A stretch of 23,376 nt of DNA from a virus. Below, one piece after another: positions 1,540 to 9,163 of this stretch. Numbering within the stretch: the first letter of the stretch is position 1; every line of letters starts with the position of its first letter. Under the pieces are notes generated by a model, which had not been told where the DNA came from, did not search any database, and was given only the letters and a program-made list of their open reading frames with translations. The DNA is taken from the IMG/VR virus record IMGVR_UViG_3300042892_002440, positions 1 through 23,376 of that record. One strand, given 5' to 3'. The position numbers and the translations under genes were made by a program.

Positions 1540-2457
1540 TCAGTTGGTTTGCCGCACAAGGTCTAACGTAACACAATGGAAGCCGCCTCCTAGAGTGCGG
1601 CTTTGTCGCAACCGCATGGGAATCACTTCAAATTGGTAACTTTTTAGGGTTTTGATCAATTCGGTTTGGTCAGCGTCACAGATCACAGTGTGTGGATCTA
1701 CCACCAACATGTTCATGGCAATCCATTTTGATGCATACGGATAACGGTAAAAATCCTGAGCAACCACATCGTTGATCCAAATTTTATGCCATCCATCAAA
1801 CACTCGGGGCACAGTATCAAACCCAACTCTCTGACCGTTTAGCATGACTAGGCCTTCGCGTAGTGGCACAATGGTAGAATCAATGTGTACCCCGGCGTAA
1901 AAATTGCACAGTTCTATTGTGACATCTGGAAACTGGTCGCACAGCCAACTGTAGGCTTTTCGATTACCCGACGCTGATTCCAAGTACAACATCTTGTCGC
2001 CCAATCTGCACACATTAGCAGCATCCAAAGTCATGCCTTCGTTGCGTGGCATGAATCGATAATGGTCAGCTGAATCCACAATGTCGTGATAGCACTGCAA
2101 TTCCATATCTCTACAGGGATACATCATGGCAGGATCCACTATAGTAGACCCATACACTAGAAATCTATCACGTGGGCAGTAGTTGTACATGCCATCATGA
2201 GTTTGGAAGTTAAGCGGATCTGGACGTACAACTTCTACTCCTAGACTGATCAGTGTGGTTGCTAGGATATCCAGATCTTCATTGGCTTCGTCGATTATTC
2301 TTTGTGGTACAGGCCCACTTGGCACAGGTGTTTCTTTCCAAGTGGTCTTTTCTGACTCTCGTGAAAACACAGGATCGTTCACAGGCCAGTTGGCGTGAGT
2401 GGCACTGCCTACTACAATTTTTTTAAGTGGGCTCCACTCGTCAACAGTTGATATCAT
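1540..2457 (-). CDS. Amidinotransferase (glycine/inosamine amidinotransferase-like)
   Basis: A 305-residue member of the guanidino-group-modifying enzyme fold that includes arginine:glycine amidinotransferase and StrB-type amidinotransferases, which move the amidino group of arginine to an amine through a covalent Cys intermediate. The visible catalytic set is Asp145 in LDAANV, His191 in GVHIDST and Cys295 in the glycine loop GGGFHCVTLD, in the expected order. The N-terminal LKKIVVGSA also fits. The length is shorter than eukaryotic AGAT (which has a leader) and close to bacterial and phage forms. The start overlaps the stop of the upstream hydroxylase-like gene (ATGA), so the two are coupled. 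The acceptor amine is unknown; the neighbouring sugar-nucleotide dehydrogenase suggests an amino-sugar or another small amine, which is inference. Arginine deiminase-like hydrolase activity is a less likely alternative. Confidence 0.85.
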   Translation of the reverse strand: MISTVDEWSPLKKIVVGSATHANWPVNDPVFSRESEKTTWKETPVPSGPVPQRIIDEANEDLDILATTLISLGVEVVRPDPLNFQTHDGMYNYCPRDRFLVYGSTIVDPAMMYPCRDMELQCYHDIVDSADHYRFMPRNEGMTLDAANVCRLGDKMLYLESASGNRKAYSWLCDQFPDVTIELCNFYAGVHIDSTIVPLREGLVMLNGQRVGFDTVPRVFDGWHKIWINDVVAQDFYRYPYASKWIAMNMLVVDPHTVICDADQTELIKTLKSYQFEVIPMRLRQSRTLGGGFHCVTLDLVRQTN

Positions 2458-2972
2458 ATGTGTCCAGTAATTTGTAATGTGTAGCGGTCCTCAAGACCAA
2501 TGTTGGCTGCCATATGTGGCAAATCGTACACCCATTCAACGGTGTCTCCAGCTTTCCAGTCAACATAAGGCCGGCCGTCTACTTCAAGATAATGACCTGG
2601 TTTCCAATCTTCCAACAACAACAAAGCACGGCGAATTGAAGTTTCTTGTCCTTGAAGATTGAAAAGTTCAACATAGCGTTTGTACAAATCTTGATGCACT
2701 GGCATCACTGTGTCAGTACTCATGCGATAAAACGCCAGGCCAATATCTTTCCACCCCTGAGCCTCGTATATTTTAATAAACTTGTCAGCCCAGGTAGGAA
2801 GTCGATGCCGCATGTCACACAGGCCCCCACAAATTTTGCTGGTGTATCCTTGTGCAGTCCAAAGAGCTACACTTGTTGGATCATTAAACGGTTCTTGGAT
2901 GTAGTCCAATGTTTTGAATTCATCATCCCAAAACCGGTCAATGTGATATTTAAAAACCACGTGTGTTGCCAT
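2454..2972 (-). CDS. Aspartyl/asparaginyl beta-hydroxylase-like Fe/2-oxoglutarate dioxygenase
   Basis: A 172-residue protein with the layout of the cupin-fold Fe(II)/2-oxoglutarate hydroxylases. An HxD motif is at 93-95 (VMPVHQDLY), a distal His is at 153 (DLPHMAANIG) and Arg163 (DRYTLQITG) could bind 2-oxoglutarate. RRALLLLEDWKPGHYLEVDG between them matches the strand-rich core. I use the ATG at 2972 (MATHVVFKYH) rather than one 35 codons upstream, because those upstream codons lie inside the preceding gene and do not look like part of this fold. The start overlaps the end of the dehydrogenase gene by 23 bases, and the stop overlaps the amidinotransferase start (ATGA), so the three genes form one translation-coupled unit. 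The substrate could be a protein side chain or a small molecule; nothing here decides. Confidence 0.68.
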   Translation of the reverse strand: MATHVVFKYHIDRFWDDEFKTLDYIQEPFNDPTSVALWTAQGYTSKICGGLCDMRHRLPTWADKFIKIYEAQGWKDIGLAFYRMSTDTVMPVHQDLYKRYVELFNLQGQETSIRRALLLLEDWKPGHYLEVDGRPYVDWKAGDTVEWVYDLPHMAANIGLEDRYTLQITGHI

Positions 2973-4191
2973 AATGAACAACTTCAACGTTGTCAGTTGA
3001 TTTAAGTTTGCGCCAAGGATCAACAATAATACTGCCCGGCACGATTGTGCAATATGCTTGAGTATCTGCTTGATCACCTATGTATTCATACGTGATCTTG
3101 CGATTGTGTGCCCACAAAAATACTGCTGGTTCGTCTACACTATCAACCACATGAGTTTTGTCATCGGCCAGTGGATCAACATAAACTACCTTGCGGCCTT
3201 CTTGTTCAATGTAGTGTCCTACCAGCGTTGAATAGCTGCCAATGCAATACTCCACATCAGGCTTGTATGCTTTGCCGTGAATCACAATGGGCAAGTTATT
3301 GTTCATCACACTCAAGTCTAACAAAAACATAGCTAAGTTTTTGGCTTGTACTTCTCTGGCATGCATAACTGTGTCAAACAAGTCGTAACCAATGTTGTAT
3401 TCTTTTGCCAACCAACGCAATGCAATGTTGTCACGTGGATGACAGGCACCTGCGTCGCCCATGCCTGCTGTCATGTATTTAGGTCCCATGATGCGCATGG
3501 TTGAACGTGCTAGTGCATCTGTAACCACATCCACATTGATATTGCCAATGCGTAATGCAAAGTCCTGAATCATGTTGACCAATCCAACTTTGGCTGATAT
3601 AAAAGTGTTATAAAAAATCTTAATAGCTTCACATTCATCCCAGGTACCAACTTCATAGCGTGGGTCGTTTTTCATGATGGTCTTGTACAAATCAATCAAC
3701 TCGCCGGCCACCCCAGTGAGTGATCCATCTTCTGTGCCAATGATTACCATCTCAGGATTGGCCATATCCCACTTGACTGATCCCATGGCAATCAAATAAG
3801 GATTGTAGCAAAACTGATGCTTGGCGTCAATCAATGGCACAAATTTCTTGCGGGTGGTACCTGGCAGTACTGTGCTTATTAACACAATTTTTTTACTGCT
3901 TTTGGCATATTTGTTCACATTGTGAATGGCATCAATCACAGCGTCATGTCCAAAGTCTCGAGGCTCCATGTGACTAGATGGTACTGACCCGTCATATCCT
4001 TCTGCATGCGGGGTTGGCACTGCAATGAAGATCCATTCACTGTTGTCCACAAGTTCTTCAATGCCACAGACTTTTACCGAGTCGCTGGTTCGTGGGTAAA
4101 TATCATACCCCCACACTTGATGTTTCTCAGCCATAACTTCGGCACAGTCCAACCCAAGTTTTCCAATCCCAATAAAACCAATTTTTGCCAT
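2950..4191 (-). CDS. UDP-glucose/GDP-mannose 6-dehydrogenase-like protein
   Basis: A 413-residue protein built like nucleotide-sugar 6-dehydrogenases, which oxidise the sugar C6 to a uronic acid with NAD+. The N-terminal Rossmann domain has GIGKLG with Gly8, Gly10 and Gly13 (MAKIGFIGIGKLG). AVPTP at 57-61 and STVLPGTTRK near 106 fit the family. The catalytic Cys is probably Cys250 in GDAGACHPRDNIAL, and EAIKIFYNTFISAKVG at 188-203 fits the Lys/Asn helix. GKAYKPDVEY at 306-315 starts the C-terminal domain. One oddity: the usual NPEF with its catalytic Glu reads NPYLIAMG at 130-137. The start at 4191 has AAAGGAA just upstream and a TATAAT-type promoter. The gene heads a coupled three-gene unit. 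Confidence 0.82.
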   Translation of the reverse strand: MAKIGFIGIGKLGLDCAEVMAEKHQVWGYDIYPRTSDSVKVCGIEELVDNSEWIFIAVPTPHAEGYDGSVPSSHMEPRDFGHDAVIDAIHNVNKYAKSSKKIVLISTVLPGTTRKKFVPLIDAKHQFCYNPYLIAMGSVKWDMANPEMVIIGTEDGSLTGVAGELIDLYKTIMKNDPRYEVGTWDECEAIKIFYNTFISAKVGLVNMIQDFALRIGNINVDVVTDALARSTMRIMGPKYMTAGMGDAGACHPRDNIALRWLAKEYNIGYDLFDTVMHAREVQAKNLAMFLLDLSVMNNNLPIVIHGKAYKPDVEYCIGSYSTLVGHYIEQEGRKVVYVDPLADDKTHVVDSVDEPAVFLWAHNRKITYEYIGDQADTQAYCTIVPGSIIVDPWRKLKSTDNVEVVHYGNTRGF

Positions 4192-5443
4192 GAGCGTTCC
4201 TTTAGATAGATTATACAATTTTTTGCAAGACATTTGCAACCATGATGTTTTAATTTATCGTTATTTTCCACATGGATCAAAAAAAATGCAGGATTGCAAA
4301 TTGCTTGCAATCGACTTGAATATGACCAAGATTGATCGGTTCAACAAAATGTATGTGTTTTGCCATGATCAGGAATTGCTAAATTCAAAAGATTTTCCAA
4401 AAGTGCCAAGTGGCATTACAGATATTCCATTGAATGCATATCGATTACTTTCGGCTAACACAATGAACAAATATGATCGCATAATTGTTGTGCATTCAGA
4501 ACTCAACAGTCCTGAAGTAACTTGGTTTGAAGAAAACGGAGCAGTCACAGTTTATTGGTGGAGTCATGCTGTGATTGCTCGAGACTGGTTTCGATATGCC
4601 AACATAGATCCCAAGTTCAACAGTCAGTCTTGTGAGTTGCAGCAAGATTTTTTAATTTATAATCGAGCCTGGCAAGGAACCCGAGAGTATCGATTGAAGT
4701 TTGCCGAGCTTGTGGTCAGTCACAATCTAACTCAACACTGTCGCATGGGGTTCAACCCAATAGACGAACAACACTATCATCAGCACCAATTTAGTAATTC
4801 TGCATTTGAAATTAACAACCACAAATTAGAAAACCACTTTCCAACAAACAATACCAACAGTTCAGCCAGTGCTGATTACTGCTCTCAAGATTATTTAGAA
4901 ACTGGACTTGAAATAGTATTAGAAACAATAGTTGATGATCAACGATGGCATCTAACTGAAAAAACTCTGCGGCCAATTGCTTGTGGGCATCCTTTTATGA
5001 TCTTAGGTACGCCAGGCATTCTTAGATATCTACGCAAATATGGATTCAAAACATTTTCACCGTTGATTGACGAAAGCTACGATGACATGCAAGATCCGGT
5101 AGAAAGGATGCAGGCTATCATTGATGTTATGAAACGTATTGCTGCCATGAGCACCGCTGACAAACTGGTGTTGTATCAACAGATGCAGGCAATTTGCAGC
5201 CACAACAAAGATAGATTTTTTAGCGATGAATTTTTAACCTGTGTCATCGAAGAGTTCAAACAAAACTTTGAGCAAGCGGCCGAACAAATGAAAAAATATC
5301 AAACTGGAGCATATTTTAAGTTGTTTTTACAAACATTCAAAAACACAACAAGTCGACTGCCTGTACCTAGACAAGAGATTGTAAAAATGTGGCAAATATT
5401 ACACAATGCAAATTGTCAACCTATGCTGCCAGAGAAGATTTAA
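4190..5443 (+). CDS. Conserved phage protein, possible glycosyltransferase-like
   Basis: A 417-residue plus-strand protein. The most recognisable part is at 255-298: LTEKTLRPIACGHPFMILGT followed by LRKYGFKTF and IDESYD. I have seen this kind of sequence in T4-like phage proteins and in poorly characterised glycosyltransferase-like families, where a TEK/RP segment precedes a PF-G motif; this is recall, not a search. The N-terminal half holds DRIIVVHSEL (96-105) and VYWWSHA (121-127). No membrane segment is evident. The start is uncertain. The ATG at 4190 gives a natural-looking N terminus (MSVPLDRLYNFLQD) but has no Shine-Dalgarno and overlaps the start codon of the divergent dehydrogenase gene; the next in-frame ATG is about 32 codons on. 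It ends in a 23-bp convergent overlap with the next gene. A role in sugar transfer is inference from the neighbour. Confidence 0.7.
   Translation: MSVPLDRLYNFLQDICNHDVLIYRYFPHGSKKMQDCKLLAIDLNMTKIDRFNKMYVFCHDQELLNSKDFPKVPSGITDIPLNAYRLLSANTMNKYDRIIVVHSELNSPEVTWFEENGAVTVYWWSHAVIARDWFRYANIDPKFNSQSCELQQDFLIYNRAWQGTREYRLKFAELVVSHNLTQHCRMGFNPIDEQHYHQHQFSNSAFEINNHKLENHFPTNNTNSSASADYCSQDYLETGLEIVLETIVDDQRWHLTEKTLRPIACGHPFMILGTPGILRYLRKYGFKTFSPLIDESYDDMQDPVERMQAIIDVMKRIAAMSTADKLVLYQQMQAICSHNKDRFFSDEFLTCVIEEFKQNFEQAAEQMKKYQTGAYFKLFLQTFKNTTSRLPVPRQEIVKMWQILHNANCQPMLPEKI
4210..4239 (-). promoter_or_regulatory. Probable sigma-70 promoter for the dehydrogenase operon
   Basis: On the minus strand TATAAT is at 4215-4210, with TTGCAA (4239-4234) as a four-of-six -35 match across an 18-nt spacer. 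The predicted start near 4203 gives a leader of about 12 nt that begins at the AAAGGAA Shine-Dalgarno. The -35 match is imperfect, so this is less sure than the other promoters listed. Confidence 0.45.
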
Positions 5444-5811: not shown

Positions 5812-6603
5812 ATGCAACTTGCCTTTGATTTAATTTCTGATTTACACATTAGCACCTGGGAAGGTGAATTTGACTGGACCAATCGAGCCACTAGCCCACA
5901 CTGTATAGTGCTGGGCGATGTGTGTGAAGATCGAGCATCCTTGTACAAAACACTCGAGCATCTTGGAAAGTGTTATCAAGCTGTGTTTTATGTTGACGGT
6001 AATGATGAACATGTGGATTTTTTTAATGATCTTGCATTCAGTTATGAAGAAATGAGTCAACGAATTGGTCAAATTCCCAATGTGGTGTATCTACAAGACA
6101 ACGTGGTAGTGATCAATGGTGTGGCTATTTTGGGCACAAATGGTTGGTGGGCATTTGACTTTGACAACACAATCGATCCTGAAGCAGTAAGAGATTGGTG
6201 GTGCGAAAAATATAACTTCACGCACGATAACTATAACGCCATACGTCGGGCCAGCACCACTGATGCCAACTACTTGATAGCCAGTGTAAAAAAACTACAA
6301 ACTCATAGAGACGTAAAGAAAATTGTCATAGCCACTCACACTGTGCCCATGCCTGCATTGATCGCACACGACATTGATTTAGCAGACAAACTCAAATTCA
6401 ACACCATGGGCAACAGGCACATGCTGAATGCACTAGACGTGGATACCGAACACAAAATTGATACATGGTGTTTTGGACACTATCACGGCAAAGTTGACCA
6501 GTATCGAGATGGTGTTCGTTATGTTAACAATTGTCGTGGTCGCGGGCAAACACCGTGGTCGCAGTATGTGTATCATCCACTGCGTGTGGTTGTTGATTAT
6601 TAA
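5812..6603 (+). CDS. Calcineurin-like metallophosphoesterase
   Basis: A 263-residue protein with the full dimetal phosphoesterase motif set in order: DLH at 10-12, GDV at 35-37, GNDEH at 63-67 (the GNHE position, with Asp-Glu in place of His-Glu), ATHTVP with His176, and GHYHG at 222-226. The family hydrolyses phosphomono- or diesters, including nucleotides, nucleic acids and phosphoproteins, with two metal ions. The substrate is not readable here. No Shine-Dalgarno precedes the ATG at 5812, and only 25 bp separate it from the divergent gene, so the mRNA leader must be short or the promoter must lie inside the neighbour. The stop codon overlaps the clpS stop on the other strand. Confidence 0.88.
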   Translation: MQLAFDLISDLHISTWEGEFDWTNRATSPHCIVLGDVCEDRASLYKTLEHLGKCYQAVFYVDGNDEHVDFFNDLAFSYEEMSQRIGQIPNVVYLQDNVVVINGVAILGTNGWWAFDFDNTIDPEAVRDWWCEKYNFTHDNYNAIRRASTTDANYLIASVKKLQTHRDVKKIVIATHTVPMPALIAHDIDLADKLKFNTMGNRHMLNALDVDTEHKIDTWCFGHYHGKVDQYRDGVRYVNNCRGRGQTPWSQYVYHPLRVVVDY

Positions 6604-6908
6604 GTTGTTTCGGGTTCCAGTTTGATCTGGAGCGGATAGTTTTGTGCTCTAGCACTCACAGTAACTTCAACACCTTTTTGTTCGGCAATTTCGTAAGGCA
6701 ACACTGCCACACAAGCAGAACCTTCTTCGTGAATGTCAATGGTGATTTGTTCTGCGGTTTCGGGAGTGTATTCAAAATATTCAACCAGACTTTCGACCAC
6801 AAACTCCATGGAAGTTGCGTTGTCGTTCAAGTAAACCACGCGAAACATAGGTGGCTCTTTTACAGCCTCTGATGGTTTGATTCGTGTGCGGGTATCGCTC
6901 TGTGCCAT
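6600..6908 (-). CDS. clpS: ClpS, N-degron adaptor for Clp protease
   Basis: A 102-residue protein matching ClpS, the adaptor that delivers proteins with N-degrons to ClpAP (ClpCP in some bacteria). The core reads FRVVYLNDNATSMEFVVESL and then IDIHEEGSA, with PYEIAEQKG and a final PLQIKLE. By alignment to E. coli ClpS from memory, Asp35, Thr38, Met40 and His66 of the N-degron pocket are kept, while Asp36 is replaced by Asn. AAGGA lies six bases before the ATG. The gene follows hsp20 after a strong hairpin. No ClpA or ClpP lies in this window, so it would have to work with host ClpA/ClpP or use the pocket for another purpose. Confidence 0.92.
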   Translation of the reverse strand: MAQSDTRTRIKPSEAVKEPPMFRVVYLNDNATSMEFVVESLVEYFEYTPETAEQITIDIHEEGSACVAVLPYEIAEQKGVEVTVSARAQNYPLQIKLEPETT

Positions 6909-6934
6909 TTCTATTCCTTGCTTTGCTATACAAT

Positions 6935-6960
6935 CAGTGGCAGCAGGATTGCTGCCACTG
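6935..6960 (-). terminator. Strong hairpin between hsp20 and clpS
   Basis: A perfect 11-bp inverted repeat (arms 6935-6945 and 6950-6960) with a four-base loop, just past the hsp20 stop. On the minus strand it is followed by ATTGTATAGC, not a clear U-run, so it may act as a weak terminator or as an mRNA 3'-end stabiliser or processing site rather than a classic intrinsic terminator. Arms are GC-rich in an AT-rich setting. Confidence 0.6.
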
Positions 6961-6976
6961 TATTTACACTATTATA

Positions 6977-7429
6977 TTAGGAAGTGTAGGTGATCGCAAT
7001 GGTCTTTGGCTTGGCATCTTCGGGCACTTCACGTTTCAAGTAAACGCTTAGGATACCAAGTTCAAGGTGAGCATTGCTGATTTCCACATGATCCGCAAGC
7101 TGGAATTCACGACGGAAATCTCTGTTGCTGATACCTTTGTGCAGGTAGTTTGGCACAATCTTTTCGCTGTCAGACTGATACTCTTTGCCTTCAATGATCA
7201 AGAACTTTTTGTCCTTGGTAACTGAAAGATTATCAAGCCCAAAACCAGCCACAGCAAGACTAATCATGTACTCATCTTCATTGATTTGTACAATATTGTA
7301 AGGTGGATAGTTTGTGCTAGATTGTTGGGCACTCACACGCATGAGTTCATCAAACATGTTATCGAAACCGATACCAAATTTGTGAATTGCGGGAATGTCG
7401 AAAGAGCGAAGGGCGAGAGTTTTTGTCAT
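6977..7429 (-). CDS. Hsp20-family small heat shock protein (IbpA-like)
   Basis: A 150-residue alpha-crystallin-type chaperone that holds unfolding proteins to prevent aggregation. The alpha-crystallin domain spans about 42-138 and includes YMISLAVAGFGLDNLSVT, REFQLADHVEI and the characteristic LGILSVYLKRE. The C-terminal IXI anchor is Ile144-Ala-Ile146. The N-terminal LRSFDIPAIHKFGIGFDNMF resembles IbpA-type proteins. AAAGGAG lies seven bases before the ATG. The gene has its own -10-like site and a 5' leader with a hairpin, set off from the S21/75-aa genes upstream. Small heat shock proteins are known in T4-like phages of aquatic hosts; a role in virion protein folding or the host stress response is inferred. 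Confidence 0.95.
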   Translation of the reverse strand: MTKTLALRSFDIPAIHKFGIGFDNMFDELMRVSAQQSSTNYPPYNIVQINEDEYMISLAVAGFGLDNLSVTKDKKFLIIEGKEYQSDSEKIVPNYLHKGISNRDFRREFQLADHVEISNAHLELGILSVYLKREVPEDAKPKTIAITYTS

Positions 7430-7463
7430 TTGTTTTCTCCTTTATATAAGCAAGATGACTTGT

Positions 7464-7491
7464 AATGTAGCCCCACTATGGGCACTACATT
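7464..7491 (-). promoter_or_regulatory. Hairpin in the hsp20 5' leader
   Basis: AATGTAG and CTACATT arms (7 bp), extended by CCC/GGG with a small bulge, sit immediately below the predicted hsp20 transcription start. The Shine-Dalgarno lies outside the stem, about 20 bases downstream. It could stabilise the mRNA 5' end or take part in temperature or translation control; no classic ROSE or fourU pairing with the Shine-Dalgarno is seen. Confidence 0.45.
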
Positions 7492-7493
7492 GT

Positions 7494-7504
7494 TATTTAT
7501 TATA
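7494..7504 (-). promoter_or_regulatory. Putative hsp20 promoter (TATAAT overlapping AATAAATA)
   Basis: On the minus strand TATAAT (7504-7499) overlaps AATAAATA (7501-7494). The first fits a sigma-70 -10 box but has no good -35 (ATAAAA at the right distance). The second fits the NATAAATA form of the late promoter described for some marine T4-like phages. Which one is used cannot be decided here. Confidence 0.35.
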
Positions 7505-7516
7505 CACGAAGAAAAA

Positions 7517-7744
7517 CTATATTTTATTATTTAGGTCAGTTACCAGGCGGTAAGTTGTCCATTCTGGATGGTCTGGGTGTGGCACCCACGTCATTGCAAA
7601 TAGTGTATAAGATTCGTCTGAATCAAACGTAACCCGCAAGGTGTATTTGAATACTTTAGTACGGTATTTGATGTTGTATTTTACTGCCCATGCATTCAGT
7701 TTGGTTCGAACTAAGTCTGAGGACAACCGAAATTCAATGTACAT
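7517..7744 (-). CDS. Hypothetical protein, 75 aa
   Basis: A short soluble protein beginning MYIEFRLSSDLVRTKLNAWA, with alternating charged and aromatic residues (KYRTKVFKYTLRVTF) that suggest a small beta-rich fold and a C-terminal TYRLVTDLNNKI. Its ATG shares one base with the S21 stop (TGATG), so it is probably translated by re-initiation after S21. No family recognised. The tight coupling to clpX and S21 is the main clue to its role. Confidence 0.6.
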   Translation of the reverse strand: MYIEFRLSSDLVRTKLNAWAVKYNIKYRTKVFKYTLRVTFDSDESYTLFAMTWVPHPDHPEWTTYRLVTDLNNKI

Positions 7745-7968
7745 CAGTACATTTTTTTAGGTAGTGCTTGTTCGGCCAGTTGTCTGCGCAAGCGATTTTT
7801 GGCAGCACTGCGTTTGAGTTTGCGAGCAGTGGTGGGCTTGGTGTAGAATTCACGATCACGCAGATCGTTAAGAATGCCTGATGTTTGAATTTTTTTCTTG
7901 AATTTACGCAATGCTTTTTCTACATTGCCGTCAGCGACTATTACCGACCTTCCGTGCAATTTGCTCAT
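7744..7968 (-). CDS. rpsU: Phage-encoded ribosomal protein bS21
   Basis: A 74-residue homologue of bacterial small-subunit protein bS21. It shows the family pattern: [35 protein letters not shown] and a basic Ala/Arg/Lys tail (KRSAAKNRLRRQLAEQ). In bacteria bS21 sits on the 30S platform near the anti-Shine-Dalgarno and helps base pairing at initiation. Copies carried by phages of aquatic bacteria have been reported and are thought to replace or add to the host protein and bias initiation. The gene start lies 38 bases inside the end of clpX in another frame, and its stop shares a base with the next ATG. The length equals full-size bacterial bS21. Confidence 0.93.
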   Translation of the reverse strand: MSKLHGRSVIVADGNVEKALRKFKKKIQTSGILNDLRDREFYTKPTTARKLKRSAAKNRLRRQLAEQALPKKMY

Positions 7969-9163
7969 TGGGTGCCTTTAATTCTATAGGAGTATTTACC
8001 AAGTCATCAGTGATTTTTACTTGGTCAATTCCTTGTTCTTTGTAATGTGCCAAGTTGAACATGTGTGGCAGTAGCACACGTTCTAGTTCACTATGAAGGC
8101 CACGTGCTCCTGTTTTGTTTTTTAGAGTGTTCTTGGCCACTTGTTCTAGTGCTGTTTTTTCAAAATCTAAAGTGACTTGGTCTTGCACAAACAACCACTT
8201 GTACTGATCTACATAACTGTGTTTGATTTCTGTTAGGATAGATATTAAATCTTTTAGTGCAAGTTCGTTTAGTGCAACCCAACTTGGAAAACGTCCCACA
8301 AACTCCGGGATCATACCAAATTTAACTAGGTCGTCAGGAGTTACTTGATCAAGGTCGCCTGGTCGGTCTACTGACACATCAGCTTGAAATCCAATTGACG
8401 TGCCGCGAATACGGTTCTTCACAATGTTATCTAGACCTACAAATGCACCGCCAGCAATAAACAAAATATTGGTGGTGTCAATTTCTACAGTTTCACCATT
8501 GGGGTGTTTGCGTCCACCAGTGGGTGTGATTCTGCACTTGGTACCTTCTACCAACTTGAGCAAGGCTTGCTGTACGCCTTCGCCTGATACATCTCGTGTG
8601 ATGCTCTGACTTTCTGAACGTCGACTGACCTTGTCTATTTCGTCCACAAACACAATACCCTGTTGTGTTTTATCAATGTCGTTGCCTGACGCAGTGTACA
8701 GGCGCGAAATCAAACTTTCCACATCATCGCCTACATATCCTGCTTCGGTTAAAGATGTAGCATCAGCAATCACAAAAGGCACGTCTAAGTATCTAGCCAC
8801 TGAACGGGCCAACAACGTTTTGCCCGACCCTGTGGGGCCTAACATGAGAATGTTGACTTTTTCAATTTCGGTATTTTTGTCCTGATTGCGTATGCGCTTG
8901 TAGTGATTGGCAATGGCCACTGCCAACACCATCTTGGCTCGATCTTGCCCGATAACATACTGATCAAGATGTTTTTGAATTAGCCTTGGATCAAGAGAGA
9001 CATGTTCTGTAGTTTTGACTGTGGGTTCATCTACCAGCAAAGTCTCACACAATTCCACACATTCATTGCATATTGCAACGTCTTCTCCCACAATGAGTTT
9101 GATCACTGCGTCTTTGTGCTTGTTGCAAAAACTACAGCTATCAGGATTTTCAGTTAATTTCAT
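7931..9163 (-). CDS. clpX: ClpX, AAA+ unfoldase of ClpXP
   Basis: A 410-residue, apparently intact ClpX. The N-terminal zinc domain has Cys10, Cys13, Cys31 and Cys34. Walker A is GPTGSGKT at 109-116, the pore loop GYVG is at 142-145 and Walker B VFVDEID is at 171-177. The RKH substrate loop is at 218-220, the ClpP-docking IGF loop at 257-259, the arginine-finger segment PEFVGRFP at 286-293 and sensor-2 GARG at 352-355 (followed by His where E. coli has Arg). The kept IGF loop implies it can dock ClpP, presumably the host's, as none is encoded here. The zinc domain implies adaptor or substrate binding. The start overlaps the upstream membrane-protein stop (ATGA), and the 3' end overlaps S21 by 38 bases. 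It could redirect host proteolysis or remodel phage complexes. Confidence 0.96.

Follow-up and report, generated by a model that had tools for sequence, protein, structure and literature searches.

A conserved phage operon combining a StrB-type amidinotransferase with a 2-oxoglutarate oxygenase and a nucleotide-sugar dehydrogenase: a candidate glycan-decoration pathway

Gene clusters for glycan modification are known from phages, yet the sugars they produce are mostly guesses. Sugar and secondary-metabolite clusters of cyanophages, with carbamoyltransferases and 2-oxoglutarate enzymes among their members, were described by Iyer et al. 2021 (PMC7824862). In the Campylobacter phages CP220 and CPt10, a putative glycine amidinotransferase was noted in a swapped module of radical SAM genes (PMC2853527), and an ocean survey reported viral GAMT, a different enzyme from the amidinotransferase considered here (PMC11360552). 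The initial annotation of the present virus record did not know its four-gene set as a described phage system, and our search of the literature on amidinotransferase or inosamine with phage or cyanophage, with thin coverage of subscription journals, likewise found no paper on it.

We propose that the set belongs to a phage glycan-decoration pathway, in which an oxidised, hydroxylated and guanidinylated sugar would be made and transferred to a glycan, with the virion as the likeliest end point. We infer the chemistry, substrates and target from the families, catalytic residues, folds and gene order reported below, and assign this reading a probability of roughly 0.55.

Four genes and their predicted products

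The window, by which we mean the whole analysed stretch of 23,376 bases, contains the four open reading frames at the positions first given for them. Three lie on the minus strand and overlap head to tail: a nucleotide-sugar (UDP-glucose type) 6-dehydrogenase (UGD; 413 aa, 2950..4191), a hydroxylase-like Fe(II)/2-oxoglutarate oxygenase (2OG; 172 aa, 2454..2972) and a StrB-type arginine:X amidinotransferase (AMT; 305 aa, 1540..2457). UGD runs 23 bases past the start of 2OG, and the 4-base sequence ATGA holds both the stop of 2OG and the start of AMT. The fourth gene, on the plus strand (4190..5443), encodes a divergent glycosyltransferase-like protein of 417 aa (GT-like). Its ATG overlaps the divergent ATG of UGD in the palindromic CATG at 4189-4192. 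At least 10 loci, those of the closest relatives, retain this arrangement, and other loci have lost it. Elsewhere in the window, a UvdE-type UV endonuclease is encoded at 101-1147; in most relatives its gene directly follows the operon on the downstream side. Positions 6600-9163 encode a ClpS adaptor, an Hsp20 and a ClpX-like ATPase consecutively, an order conserved in more than 100 related loci; the neighbourhood of ClpS and ClpX is odd, since ClpS normally pairs with ClpA.

AMT is missed by Pfam and NCBIfam alone. In the PDB, a profile of 27 relatives best matches a pentein amidinotransferase over the full length, the inosamine-phosphate amidinotransferase StrB (1bwd; E 3.4e-89, 302 bits); HsvA (178 bits), the glycine amidinotransferase AGAT (171), SxtG (167) and the dimethylargininase DDAH (22) score well below it. 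These scores uphold the earlier call of a StrB-type enzyme as opposed to one of the glycine or dimethylarginine type. Residues D97, H191, D193, R210, S243 and C295 are invariant in 27 sequences, and D145 is found in more than 90% of them. In the alignment D97, H191, D193, R210 and C295 correspond to D170, H303, D305, R322 and C407 of AGAT, and AMT has the counterparts of AGAT D170, D254, H303, D305, R322, S355 and C407, which we take to be the catalytic and arginine-binding positions; judged by this alignment, the active site is complete. A quick tree unites the phage AMTs in one clade (support 100), grouped with StrB-type bacterial enzymes and the enzyme of cyanophage S-SCSM2R (support 90), and leaves the CP220 AMT and the AMT paralogues outside this set; the deep placements are unsure because several branches are long. 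A match in a Bacteroidetes MAG (L210, 61% identical) sits inside the phage clade and probably stems from a phage contig. Creatine-type auxiliary metabolism was rejected, AMT being far nearer to StrB than to AGAT.

The affinity to an enzyme of the streptomycin pathway, with Streptomyces griseus and further producers of the streptomycin type among the cellular relatives, would also suit the synthesis of an aminoglycoside-like or other guanidino metabolite in place of polymer decoration. DegT aminotransferases, carbamoyltransferases and epimerases likewise occur in such pathways, and a secondary metabolite was raised for one cyanophage cluster by Iyer et al. (PMC7824862). However, neither a cyclitol-forming set nor an exporter was seen with the operon, and the gene that recurs as its partner is glycosyltransferase-like; we hold a free small molecule to be quite improbable.

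No Pfam match exists for the window 2OG protein. It carries the HxD...H...R set as H94xD96...H154...R164, with H94, D96, H154 and R164 invariant in 27 sequences, S-SCSM2R included. The fold of its AF2 model (pLDDT 91.3) agrees with the initial hydroxylase-like label: the Foldseek matches are the Fe/2OG oxygenases AndA, AsqJ, P4H (4j25) and proline cis-4-hydroxylase. The double-stranded beta-helix, the HxD...H motif and the 2OG-binding Arg characterise the protein as an Fe(II)/2OG oxygenase.

UGD is matched by PF00984/PF03721, by PHROG 9148 (E 1e-89) and by UDP-glucose dehydrogenases of the PDB (E 3e-25); the match of its C-terminal UDP-binding domain is weak (PF03720, E 0.02). The catalytic Cys and Lys, C251 and K202, are invariant in 20 sequences, and the enzyme is an NDP-sugar dehydrogenase, as had been supposed. 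It is 56% identical to gp227 of Synechococcus phage Bellamy. The neighbours of the UGD-subfamily gene in Bellamy and HTVC008M are a carbamoyltransferase, a NadE-like gene and a methyltransferase, joined in Bellamy by glycosyltransferases.

GT-like belongs to no Pfam sequence family, a PDB sequence search gave nothing useful and tblastn of reference phages gave no match. GT-B enzymes have two Rossmann-like domains, the C-terminal one with the nucleotide-sugar site. The AF2 model of GT-like (pLDDT 92.5) resembles a GT-B glycosyltransferase, in line with the original suggestion, at a modest TM of about 0.4 to the top Foldseek matches (glycogen synthase, SdgB, SenB, TarM and alpha-1,3-fucosyltransferase); the GT-B fold is also that of UDP-N-acetylglucosamine 2-epimerases. 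The conserved core of the family reads TEKxLRPIxxGxPF...YLRxYGFKTF...DESYD.

Conservation of the operon and recurrence of its parts

Scans of viral contigs yielded 199 AMT and 169 2OG relatives, and the best 80 of each led to 95 distinct AMT loci, picked by similarity from IMG/VR records that may be redundant between samples and may be incomplete. In this sample 2OG lies just upstream of AMT in 95/95 loci, UGD is present in 92/95 and the divergent GT-like gene in 79/95, and all genes stand together in 77/95. Part of the loci were obtained with 2OG as bait; the loci obtained with AMT likewise show 2OG. The co-occurrence of the four genes is far above chance, and the same order, for which the initial annotation had advised a search in phages, recurs there as a unit. 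In four loci (L048, L103, L114 and L115) the missing GT-like gene is replaced by a DUF6492 protein, perhaps another glycosyltransferase. Two loci (L031 and L034) have a 2OG only 40-41% identical while AMT and UGD are at least 80% identical, so each slot of the operon is exchanged separately, yet retained. In a few relatives (L026:2867-3535, L097:8503-9060) the operon contains inserted ORFs that look, by eye, like GIY-YIG homing endonucleases.

In about 40 loci the operon is extended by a fibre-like gene, f16, directly or one gene after AMT. It is often accompanied by f22 or f31, two families with no Pfam, PHROG or PDB relative. The fibre-like character of f16 is suggested by a tail-fibre match in one member (E 0.002) and by a short module common to large ORFs; the gene is absent from the window and from most close relatives. 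Because f16 joins the operon, we favour a virion fibre as the target. The same fibre-like gene would fit direct protein modification, in which 2OG hydroxylates a virion protein, AMT amidinates its lysine-like amine to homoarginine and GT-like acts on the hydroxyl; the resemblance of the 2OG model to prolyl hydroxylases and the radical SAM maturase-like genes found with AMT in L002, L206 and CP220 point the same way. Such a scheme leaves UGD with no role, however, and the nearest relative of AMT acts on an aminocyclitol; we consider it very improbable.

Eighteen large relatives (G001-G018, 209-364 kb) place the operon in a genomic context. A freshwater origin is suggested for them by the context of the records and by the fact that no close reference phage is marine, rather than by sample metadata, and their identification as cyanophages was rejected, as 0/15 carry a photosystem reaction-centre gene. 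Each has 1-10 matches to the AMT profile (some genes give two pieces), 1-4 to 2OG and 2-14 to the multicopy GT-like family, and DegT-family matches occur in 17/18. At least eight of these genomes share a second cluster, likewise conserved, in which a DegT aminotransferase, two GT-like copies and an AMT paralogue are in most cases accompanied by an epimerase and a carbamoyltransferase. A third, in G010/L206, has short DegT, 2OG, GT-like, radical SAM and AMT genes back to back; nearly these parts form one run in S-SCSM2R—short DegT, radical SAM, GT, 2OG, AMT and GT. It is mainly because the parts recur in separate clusters that we believe them to act together on sugars. AMT paralogues lie near GT-like copies in 9/21 cases against 2.5 expected, copies that share descent and are not independent.

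Several more distant pentein paralogues, of the FWDGG[IVL]HC type, were also found; pentein/AMT paralogues occur repeatedly among the large relatives, and one subtype directly follows UvdE. The short DegT-like protein (about 200 aa; L169:6315-6911, L173:6576-7187, L206:1702-2373, L002:12293-12880) matches only parts of its family and often adjoins an epimerase; most large relatives have it, as does S-SCSM2R. A very large ORF of about 540-1450 aa, starting MFDVFYxGxKPNLF (L192:6450-10820, L209:3315-7118), is divergent to the GT-like pair of the second cluster and has no useful Pfam match.

GT-like is the fastest-changing member of the operon: its identity is about 40-50% in loci whose AMTs are 75-95% identical. 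Such change is expected under surface selection, and together with the multiplicity of the family it would suit an alternative that differs in target only: the same chemistry, applied to the LPS, capsule or O-antigen of the host, would block superinfection. Iyer et al. 2021 (PMC7824862) proposed host-surface remodelling for the sugar and glycosyltransferase clusters of jumbo cyanophages. Decoration of the virion would be compatible with fast divergence as well, however, and no membrane flippase, ligase or lipid-carrier transferase was recognised in the operon; we view a host-surface target as doubtful but worth keeping in mind.

A candidate route to a guanidino sugar

Under the proposed decoration of a virion glycan, UGD would oxidise C6 of a UDP-sugar to give a uronate, and 2OG would hydroxylate the sugar, or a protein residue due to carry it. 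AMT would move the amidino group of arginine to an amino group, on either the sugar itself or a near precursor of it, and so yield a guanidino sugar; GT-like may pass one of the sugars made by the set to a glycan. The product predicted from a StrB-type AMT is specific: a positively charged guanidino sugar, heavier by 42.02 Da. No aminotransferase is encoded within the window, so the four-gene set is not self-sufficient and its amino acceptor has to be supplied from outside; the amino group probably derives from DegT aminotransferases encoded at other sites of the genome. The small biosynthetic pathway first envisaged is thus supported in part: the genes form a conserved unit, but one that does not suffice by itself. 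The target is the weakest link of the mechanism; the likeliest one is the virion, for example the fibre protein encoded after AMT in many relatives, with the host surface as the alternative.

Decoration of a glycan, a DNA base or a protein had been suggested at the outset, and the DNA base has since become less likely. Guanidino or uronyl sugars might be placed on a modified base, much as T4-like phages glycosylate hydroxymethylcytosine, and the window also encodes a ribonucleotide reductase and a DNA ligase. Yet PF00303, the thymidylate synthase/dCMP hydroxymethylase family, is present in 5 and absent in 13 of the 18 large relatives, whose records may be incomplete, and QueC was found in 0/15. 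A hydroxylated base might also be reached by other routes. With PF00303 lacking in most relatives and QueC in all 15, DNA-base modification is disfavoured, and we rate it as unlikely. A 7-deazaguanine DNA route through preQ1 amidination was rejected, QueD- and QueE-like ORFs being seen by eye but QueC in none of the 15.

A glycan on the virion is the reading we favour, and a broader form of it can be put forward tentatively: large phages of non-photosynthetic freshwater hosts might possess a dedicated multi-locus guanidino-sugar system that coats virion fibres with positively charged sugars by the chemistry of aminoglycoside antibiotics. Carried by virions, the product would represent a novel type of decoration; on host glycans, it would be a new way of blocking competitors.

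Comparison with described systems

The operon is conserved across a lineage of large freshwater phages, and its 2OG-AMT pair extends to a cultured phage. In the marine cyanophage S-SCSM2R (PQ898602, SSCSM2R_301-310), 2OG is immediately followed by an inosamine-type AMT, with glycosyltransferases around them, a short DegT and a radical SAM gene. Its AMT is 38% and its 2OG 32% identical to those of the window, and neither a UGD nor a homologous GT-like gene lies beside the pair. StrB (1bwd) matches the window AMT over the whole length with conserved arginine-binding and catalytic residues; the Streptomyces members, however, are 38-39% identical to it and StrB has 348 aa against 305 aa, and the gene of the window enzyme belongs to a phage operon that includes UGD and 2OG and has no streptomycin genes. 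The module of the Campylobacter phages CP220 and CPt10 (PMC2853527) resembles the operon in combining, in CP220, an AMT with two genes of NDP-sugar-transferase fold and in being swapped as a module. It differs in having radical SAM enzymes in place of 2OG, and its AMT is only 25% identical to that of the window.

The sugar and capsular-polysaccharide clusters of jumbo cyanophages share glycosyltransferases, epimerases, carbamoyltransferases and 2OG oxygenases with the present phages, but penteins are unmentioned in their description (Iyer et al. 2021, PMC7824862). As in clusters of that type, glycosyltransferase and NDP-sugar synthesis genes stand in one run in the second cluster of the large relatives; the window itself has one GT-like gene plus UGD. 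The large relatives differ from the jumbo cyanophages in carrying no photosystem genes and in keeping one fixed UGD-2OG-AMT order. The StrB-type step and the fixed operon appear to be undescribed, whereas phage sugar clusters with glycosyltransferases, carbamoyltransferases and 2OG enzymes are known.
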